DNA from: Acidobacteriota bacterium | GTDB lineage: Bacteria; Acidobacteriota; UBA890; WLXD01 | Direction: 5' to 3' | NCBI GenBank assembly: GCA_012103255.1 | Contig: WLXD01000001.1 | Coordinates: forward strand, 806,001 to 870,000 | DNA: 64,000 nucleotides | In this document: positions 16,924 through 18,310 of the stretch, in pieces | Numbering within the stretch: the stretch's first letter is position 1 | Layout of the letters: each line of letters opens with the position of its first letter | Notes under the pieces: generated by a model | The model's input: the letters and a program-made list of their open reading frames with translations, nothing else | Database searches by the model: none | What the model was told of the DNA's origin: nothing | Translations under genes and position numbers: made by a program

Positions 16924-17172
16924 TGGTAATGCTCCGTGGTTGGACAGACGCCGCAGTGTAATCCCCGAACGTGCTCATCACGCGAATAATGCGCGTGGCA
17001 CCCGTAGCGTGGACGGCACTCCGATTGCTAGCATCGCCGAGTGGGCAACTCGCGATGATCGCGGGTTGCCGGGTGATTCACGTAATCCGGAGGATTGACG
17101 TGGCGGTTCTGCCGGGGCATCGAGCGGCCCACAGAGAACCGGGCGACACTGGGACCCGCCGATACGGTCGCG
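16924..17172. other. gene-free stretch before the structured RNA
   Basis: No convincing gene on either strand. There is a 6-bp-arm inverted repeat, CACGCG (16979-16984) and CGCGTG (16992-16997), with an AT-rich spacer. A TTGACG at 17095-17100 could be a -35 element for the RNA that follows, but the expected -10 region near 17118 (CATCGA) is poor, so the promoter is not established. Confidence 0.4.
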
Positions 17173-17192
17173 CTCAGAAAGGAGGTGATTTG

Positions 17193-17237
17193 GTGTTATC
17201 TGACAGATACAGCTTTACGGAGGTGGCAGCCCCGTAG
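17193..17237 (+). CDS. candidate 14-residue micro-ORF (leader peptide)
   Basis: GTG start followed by codons for LSDRYSFTEVAAP and a TAG stop. Upstream, AAAGGAGGTGAT (17178-17189) is complementary to the 3' end of 16S rRNA over 12 bases, far stronger than any other ribosome site in the window. The spacing to GTG is 7 bases; a TTG at 17190 would add one residue. The peptide has no run of one amino acid, so classical amino-acid attenuation is not suggested. The last third of the ORF is one arm of the long-range RNA pairing, so a translating ribosome would change the fold. Translation is inferred. Confidence 0.45.
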   Translation: MLSDRYSFTEVAAP

Positions 17238-17337
17238 GGGTCTTCTTTCTGAGTCCCGGGAGCCTCGGCTTTCGGGTTTGGTGTGGTTGCACCCTGGAGA
17301 CGGGGAGTCCCACTGCCACTTACGAGAAGCACAAAGG

Positions 17338-17370
17338 GCCCCGGCGTTCGAACGCGAGCGCCGGGGCTTT
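17338..17370 (+). terminator. intrinsic terminator between the structured RNA and the lipid kinase
   Basis: A 13-bp stem (17338-17350 with 17355-17367, one G-U pair), loop AACG, followed by TTTC. The stem is very GC-rich; the T tract is short. It ends 31 bases before the kinase ATG. Confidence 0.8.
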
Positions 17371-17401
17371 CTCGTGCCCTCTGCTAGGCTCAGCAGCCGT
17401 C

Positions 17402-18310
17402 ATGAAAGCCTTGATCATCGTGAACCCGGTGGCCGGCGAGCAGCGCCCGCTGCAAATCGCCGAGAACGCGCGAGCCTTCCTCGACGGCGCGGGGTGGGAA
17501 GCTGAAATCCGCGCCACGGAGCGCGGCGGCCACGCCACCGAACTCGCTCGCGACCGAGGCGCGGTGGATCGCGTGATCGTGGTGGGTGGCGACGGCACGC
17601 TGCGCGAGACAGTCGCGGGCCTGGACGGTGCTCCCGTACCCGTGGGCTTCATCCCTACGGGCAAAGCCAATGTGATGGCGCGCGAACTGGGCATTCCCCG
17701 CACGCCGGCGCAGGCAATTCGCCTCCTCGCCACCGGCGAGCCGAAAGCGATCGACGCGGGCACGGTTGGCGAGCGTATTTTTCTGGCGATGGTCGGCGTC
17801 GGGTATGACGGCTGGGTGACGAGCGGTGTCGACGCGTTTCGCGCCCGCCCGTGGGGACAGTGGATCTACCGCCATAGCGGTTCCACGTTGCTCTATGTGC
17901 TCGCTGGAATCCCGGCATTGCTTCGCCTGCGACCGACGCGCGCGCGCATCGAAGCCGACGGCCAGCAGCTCTCGGCGGCCTACCCCTCGCTCACCATCAG
18001 CAACGCTGCGACGTACTCGATTGGCTGGGAGATGACTCCTGGTGCACGAACCGATGATGGAATGCTGGATCACCAGGCGAATCGAAGAGCCGCGCCGTGG
18101 TTCGTGGCATGGACGATCGTCGCTTCGATCCTGAAGGTCCGACTGCCGGGTCTTGTGGCGACCTACGGCAGAGCACGAAGCTATCGAGTGACGGCCGACG
18201 AACCCTTCCGTTGGCAAGTGGACGGCGACCCGATGCCGCCTGCGCGTGAACTCGAGATCGGACTCCTGCCGGGCCACGTCCAGCTCATTGTTCCGGCCAC
18301 GGCCGACTGA
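17402..18310 (+). CDS. diacylglycerol/lipid kinase family protein
   Basis: A 302-residue soluble or membrane-associated kinase of the DagK/YegS family, which phosphorylates diacylglycerol or related lipids with ATP. The N-terminus KALIIVNPVAGEQRP and the ATP motif VVGGDGTLRE (GGDGT at residues 62-66) are typical, as are VPVGFIPTGKANVMARELGIP and the late segment PFRWQVDGDPMPP. The length is normal for the family. There is no clear Shine-Dalgarno before the ATG, and a strong terminator ends 31 bases upstream, so expression may depend on read-through or on a promoter inside the terminator region. The 3' end overlaps the convergent glycosylase by 26 bases. Substrate specificity cannot be assigned. 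Confidence 0.88.
   Translation: MKALIIVNPVAGEQRPLQIAENARAFLDGAGWEAEIRATERGGHATELARDRGAVDRVIVVGGDGTLRETVAGLDGAPVPVGFIPTGKANVMARELGIPRTPAQAIRLLATGEPKAIDAGTVGERIFLAMVGVGYDGWVTSGVDAFRARPWGQWIYRHSGSTLLYVLAGIPALLRLRPTRARIEADGQQLSAAYPSLTISNAATYSIGWEMTPGARTDDGMLDHQANRRAAPWFVAWTIVASILKVRLPGLVATYGRARSYRVTADEPFRWQVDGDPMPPARELEIGLLPGHVQLIVPATAD

Follow-up and report, generated by a model that had tools for sequence, protein, structure and literature searches.

A stand-alone structured RNA gene with a conserved micro-ORF in Acidobacteriota and other bacterial lineages

Introduction

RNAIII/hld and SgrS/SgrT are structured stand-alone RNAs that carry a small ORF led by a Shine-Dalgarno (SD) sequence, and their peptides have known roles of their own. 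The messenger-like part of tmRNA has a pseudoknot just before a short ORF and a stop codon placed in a hairpin. As a kind, the stand-alone structured RNA with a micro-ORF is loosely known.

Here we describe an RNA of this kind from an Acidobacteriota bacterium. Coordinates refer to the window, the whole 64,000-nucleotide stretch of DNA that was analysed, in which positions 17079-17376 constitute a stand-alone RNA gene of about 300 bases. Comparative sequence analysis confirmed it as a structured RNA with a real, conserved micro-ORF, absent from Rfam.

Results

Comparison with described RNA families

Permissive cmscan of 15-20 kb in the window returned no Rfam family, in agreement with an earlier sequence-only reading (the first-pass annotation) that had been unable to match the RNA to a known class, and the RNA was described nowhere in the open-licence papers searched. 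Among the families scanned, the nearest in layout is CC2171 (RF01867). Like the new RNA, it is a stand-alone RNA with a short ORF that begins at the GTG of GAAAGGAGGTGATCCAGTG (VSHC..., 24-26 codons), and at four alphaproteobacterial loci its ORF codons pair with a strand just before the terminator. The layout of SD, short GTG-initiated ORF and 3' strand paired to the ORF ahead of the terminator is thus present in both, but different codons are paired: codons 2-5 in CC2171, the second half of the ORF in the new RNA. CC2171 also has no 5' pseudoknot domain, its Rfam model starting just before the SD, and the peptide and the taxa differ. CC2171 gave no match in the window at E<=5; in two Acidobacteriota homologues it scored 31.3 and 19.3 bits, below the gathering score of 75 that defines membership, and the model of the new RNA scored only 7-13 bits at CC2171 loci. 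Because CC2171 is without the 5' domain and neither model matches the other above threshold, we keep the two apart and file the new RNA as a new family rather than as a member of CC2171.

The CC2171 loci themselves (L130:2001-2174, L131:2001-2181, L132:2001-2171 and L133:2001-2171) each hold an SD-led GTG ORF of 24-26 codons that starts VSHC and has TAA or TAG as its stop (for example VSHCLTPRSNALVTWMLASGEACAA). CC2171 is catalogued simply as an sRNA but may, from these ORFs, also be translated.

With tmRNA the new RNA shares a pseudoknot ahead of a short ORF and a stop codon in a hairpin; it differs in having an SD and a start codon and in lacking a tRNA-like domain. tmRNA was rejected as an identity, with no RF00023 match at the locus, no ARAGORN prediction, and the full tmRNA of the genome located on another contig. 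6S RNA (RF00013) is likewise a single-copy, stand-alone structured RNA of similar size, but its structure differs. It was also rejected: RF00013 has no match at the locus, and each of the 24 carrier genomes tested from other orders has a separate 6S RNA. The idea that the new RNA replaces 6S RNA or tmRNA was likewise rejected.

As a separate observation, 6S RNA (RF00013) went undetected in G000 and five other genomes of the window's order (0 of 6) and was present in most other tested members of the window's phylum. It may have been lost, or have diverged highly, in this order.

Extent and architecture of the RNA

The first-pass annotation had described a structured RNA beginning at 17161. A direct sequence check located all of its listed elements where it had placed them, and its structured RNA stands, but alignment of relatives moves the start of the conserved RNA to near 17079. 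The parts of the gene and its neighbour are as follows.

17079..17102, + strand: P0, 5' terminal hairpin (CACGTAATCC / GGATTGACGTG), read from sequence
17105..17140, + strand: P1 hairpin (17105-17110 with 17135-17140); 7 of 8 pairs changed on both sides in 54 homologues
17122..17126, + strand: pseudoknot 5' strand GAGCG in the P1 loop, pairing with 17171-17175
17142..17160, + strand: P2 hairpin (GGCG 17142-17145 / CGCC 17157-17160); 7 of 7 pairs changed on both sides, 92% paired
17171..17175, + strand: pseudoknot 3' strand CGCTC, immediately 5' of the SD; pairing test in homologues
17178..17189, + strand: extended SD AAAGGAGGTGAT; a strong SD lies here in all homologues
17193..17237, + strand: micro-ORF with GTG start, 14 codons and TAG stop (VLSDRYSFTEVAAP); frame kept in 62 of 62
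17212..17229, + strand: P4 5' strand, the second half of the ORF (17222-17229 GGTGGCAG plus GCTT 17212-17215); covariation and shuffles
17230..17240, + strand: small hairpin with the stop codon (CCCC-GUA-GGGG); helix 4, 74% paired, 3 of 4 pairs changed on both sides
17241..17254, + strand: anti-SD strand past the stop, pairing with 17172-17185; count of SD-complementary 4-mers
17290..17305, + strand: P6 hairpin (CCCTG / CGGGG) within the weaker P5; helix 6, 5 of 5 pairs changed on both sides
17313..17330, + strand: P4 3' strand (CTGCCACT..CG..AAGC); covariation and shuffles
17338..17376, + strand: intrinsic terminator (GCCCCGGCG..CGCCGGGGC, then TTTCT); sequence, and T-run in homologues
17402..18310, + strand: neighbouring YegS/DAGK-type lipid kinase (PF00781, 2.7e-29), outside the RNA

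The terminator hairpin occupies about 17338-17367. The micro-ORF, of 14 codons as originally claimed, runs from the GTG at 17193 to the TAG at 17235-17237. Pairing is exact both at 17173-17181/17245-17253 and at 17223-17229/17313-17319, and these two pairings cross. For the second of these, between the ORF and the 3' strand, comparative support is very strong; its proposed extension (17230-17235/17300-17305) gives way to two local hairpins. The first survives as an anti-SD that follows the stop codon in most homologues, and a competing conserved pseudoknot (17122-17126/17171-17175) had been overlooked.

The extended SD is the sole match in the 64 kb with up to one mismatch allowed (0.13 expected by chance). 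One explanation built on this element is that the RNA binds ribosomes: its extended complement to the 16S 3' end would titrate or report free 30S subunits, and the ORF would release the bound ribosome. The complementarity is far above that of normal genes and unique in the 64 kb, and several homologues read AGAAAGGAGGTGRTCCAG, nearly the entire complement of the usual 16S 3' end. This explanation leaves the pseudoknot domain and the ORF/3' helix unaccounted for, however, and a single-copy gene would require very high expression; we consider it improbable.

Folding and covariation

The fold of 17161-17376 has an energy of -107 kcal/mol, compared with -82.4 +/- 4.7 for shuffled sequences (z -5.2; 0 of 200 shuffles). 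The structure was assessed in an alignment of 54 homologues (median identity 59%) that was itself fitted to the structure. Over 41 pairs, 86.4% of cells were paired, versus 35-50% in slid controls, and the covariation score was 0.338 versus 0.172 in shuffles (0 of 500). Of the 41 pairs, 34 had changed on both sides, against 19.1 +/- 1.9 in shuffles, these being counts of sequences and not of independent events. An unfitted MAFFT alignment, A6, agreed (82.6% paired, 22 pairs changed on both sides, slid controls 34-51%).

Individual helices behaved consistently. In P4a, 425 of 432 cells are standard pairs, with CG/UA, GC/AU and UA/GC/AU exchanges; P4b reached a pairing score of 14.1, compared with 11.5 for shuffled partners (0 of 500). 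The pseudoknot is absent from every model used, and its three variable positions pair in 48 of 52 homologues (mean 38.5 and maximum 43 over 5000 shuffles). A 4-mer complementary to the SD lies within 28 nt past the stop in 46 of 54 homologues, where 13 were expected; in the window, the corresponding anti-SD helix (17172-17185/17241-17254) and the pseudoknot are mutually exclusive. The P0 hairpin recurs at the same position with altered bases (CCAUG..CAUGG in L074, CCUUUGACUC..GAGUCGAAGG in L089), as judged by eye. Thermodynamic folding, which ignores pseudoknots, gave a clear P4 for no more than about half of the homologues (median probability 0.85, mean 0.58, window 0.07).

Three close relatives had pointed to a closing stem, GTGGCGGT/ACTGCCAC, which was dropped since its varying 3' bases covary with the ORF and not with the 5' end. 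No convincing covariation was found among the homologues for any alternative partner of the released 3' strand. The hairpin between the anti-SD and P5 often has the loop GTGGCG (A6 columns 200-206; for example L045, L069 and L089), in which the sequence paired with the 3' CGCCAC occurs for a third time; it is a possible alternative partner, without clear covariation.

The micro-ORF is conserved in frame and not in peptide

An uninterrupted frame of 13, 14 or 15 codons lies directly past the SD in all 62 homologues, comprising 57 examined in detail and five added from other phyla that agree on the frame (L137, L138, L143, L145 and L146). In the 57, the distance from the start to the block GAGGTGGC is 21, 24 or 27 bases, in every case divisible by three, and the start codon (GTG in 54, TTG in two, ATG in one) keeps a fixed spacing to the SD. 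Among the 50 distinct variable parts, in-frame stops number 0 in 398 variable codons, versus 25 and 40 of 348 in the other frames. Some of the loci came from a pattern scan that fixed a start codon, the GAGGTGGC block and the first two stop bases (TA), leaving the frame and the third stop base free; since the ORF block was pre-set, only the frame, the third stop base and the remaining RNA count as independent evidence for those hits. Together these comparisons provide strong sequence evidence, although not proof, that the micro-ORF is translated.

The stop codons of the 57 are TAG (41) and TAA (16), with no TGA, which terminates 147 of 264 long ORFs nearby (56%). Across all 62 homologues the stops are UAG or UAA, the codons read by release factor 1 (RF1), and never UGA, although UGA is the commonest stop in the genomes. 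Either a constraint on the loop or a connection with RF1 could account for this.

The encoded peptide is conserved at its EVA end only. Codons 2-5 vary freely (VDDLTS, VYLLRC and VIYFYQ are examples). In the constant GAG-GTG-GC(G) segment silent variants are nearly absent, and changes are compensated in the partner strand: in L137, L138 and L143 the GCG has become GTG or GTA with the partner bases changing too, despite the altered amino acid, as in the A-to-V replacements with compensated pairing GGUGGUGU/ACACCACC in L138 and GGUGGUGA/UCACCACC in L137. This covariation indicates that the EVA end is set by P4 base pairing. We conclude from the comparison that selection keeps the open frame and the pairing, rather than the peptide. 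Stalling at rare codons is not claimed: codons rare in these genomes make up 21% of those in the ORFs, versus 1.8%, but the low GC content of the ORF codons (42%) alone predicts about 15%.

These observations bear on two explanations in which the peptide is a product. The first is a small-protein gene, whose 13-15-residue peptide (ending EVA[SA][SP]) is the output while the structure only governs how it is made or how stable its mRNA is. Conservation of the SD, start, frame and stop throughout, and the nearly constant C-terminal EVA, fit this explanation; residues 2-8, in contrast, are conserved neither in kind nor in charge, the constant end shows almost no silent variation and changes A to V or E to G in some lineages with pairing kept, and the transcript has several times the length required, with helices that covary strongly on either side of the ORF. 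We regard a small-protein gene as unlikely. The second, which we judge to be no likelier, is a dual-function sRNA in which the structured RNA regulates targets on its own and the ORF yields an independent peptide. A stand-alone gene with its own terminator, structure and ORF is the layout of known dual-function sRNAs, but here one strand serves both functions, the peptide varies, and no conserved single-stranded seed was found. Whereas the peptides of RNAIII/hld and SgrS/SgrT have roles of their own, the new RNA conserves frame and pairing and not peptide; instead of a conserved peptide product, only the pairing-dictated EVA end is kept.

The first-pass annotation had offered a ribosome-controlled switch and an sRNA that also encodes a peptide. 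Both remain, and since it is the frame and not the peptide that is conserved, the data favour the switch.

An independent transcription unit

At 33 of 55 loci, where 0.04 were expected, P0 is directly preceded by a perfect TTGACA followed by NANNNT at 16-18 bases, and 46 of 54 homologues have a T-run after the P4 3' strand. No recognisable sigma-70 promoter was present upstream of the RNA in the window (17020-17079) or in the window's own family and order, whereas most other lineages carry the perfect TTGACA box; the window's order may use a different sigma factor for this RNA.

The proximity of the lipid kinase raises the explanation of a cis-acting leader or riboswitch. The kinase lies close by on the same strand in the window and two relatives, but a terminator intervenes, and the class of the downstream gene is not conserved: elsewhere it is DHDPS and glucose dehydrogenase in opposite orientation, or else sensor kinases, malate synthase, CarB or an M48 peptidase. 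The kinase is a neighbour in the window's family only; outside it, unrelated genes follow, often in the reverse direction, which leaves a connection with the kinase unsupported. The RNA's own promoter and terminator, together with unrelated downstream genes, argue for an independent RNA gene with the lipid kinase as a bystander. Control of the kinase by the RNA is unlikely, and a cis-acting role in general very improbable.

Distribution across bacteria

A blastn search in relatives found the region in one congener (80% identity) and one further family member, in both just upstream of the same lipid kinase; congener G001 (92% complete) gave no match. A covariance model built from the window and the two matching relatives recovered full-length members in distant families, and the DNA pattern scan added about 45 further named loci in Vicinamibacteria, Thermoanaerobaculia, other Acidobacteriota and one Krumholzibacteriia MAG, as well as one MAG each named 'Gemmatimonadetes', 'Deltaproteobacteria' and 'Proteobacteria'. 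Model R2 (44 sequences) found the RNA in 42 of 396 genomes of the window's phylum, one copy each, mostly at E 1e-20 to 1e-42, with two weak matches. Model R3 detected it in 4 of 5 genomes of the phylum holding L082 and L078, and, within the phylum to which L055 and L064 belong, in a few members at E 1e-10 to 1e-22. Contamination is unlikely because several independent genomes represent each group, though MAG names may be wrong. Besides Acidobacteriota, no fewer than two or three further bacterial lineages have the RNA gene.

Two sets of candidates were discarded as chance: short blastn matches of 19-38 bases each in phylum members L007-L012, L016, L017 and L019, of which those read lacked the remainder of the RNA, and pattern hits in Microbacterium, Streptomyces, Micromonospora and others.

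Discussion

In our view, held at slightly below even confidence, the RNA is best explained as acting in trans, with a fold that ribosomes gate by translating the micro-ORF. Comparative evidence supports the structure, the open frame and the separate promoter and terminator; actual translation, switching and any trans target or bound factor are what we infer, and no target or partner for the switch was found. The transcript would present a pseudoknotted 5' domain, then a strong ribosome-binding site, then the ORF of 13-15 codons. A 30S subunit would be captured by the extended SD and initiate at the GTG. Because the second half of the ORF forms the 5' strand of P4, P4 must open when a ribosome reads to the stop; the ribosome would unwind it there and halt at the UAR codon within the adjacent hairpin. 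This would set one of two states, with P4 closed, or with P4 open and the 3' strand and anti-SD free, and the anti-SD past the stop could in turn cover the SD. A P4 strand within the ORF, and an anti-SD able to cover the SD, make a translation-gated switch the most economical reading.

More tentatively still, and with distinctly less than even probability, the RNA may be a kind of RNA machine not described before and common to several phyla. Its conserved input would be the translation of a near-arbitrary micro-ORF, not its peptide, with the ribosome opening a helix that covaries. Initiation or termination (the latter always at a UAR codon read by RF1) would then be coupled to a trans-acting output. 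In the Alphaproteobacteria, CC2171 may represent a similar solution reached independently.

It is rare for an RNA gene this large and intricately folded to span several phyla and yet be missing from the RNA-family library. The models and alignments suffice to design decisive mutants and to search existing RNA-seq of cultured Acidobacteriota. With its structure and frame conserved and its peptide not, this RNA offers a clean, testable case of the ribosome as the switch for a stand-alone RNA.
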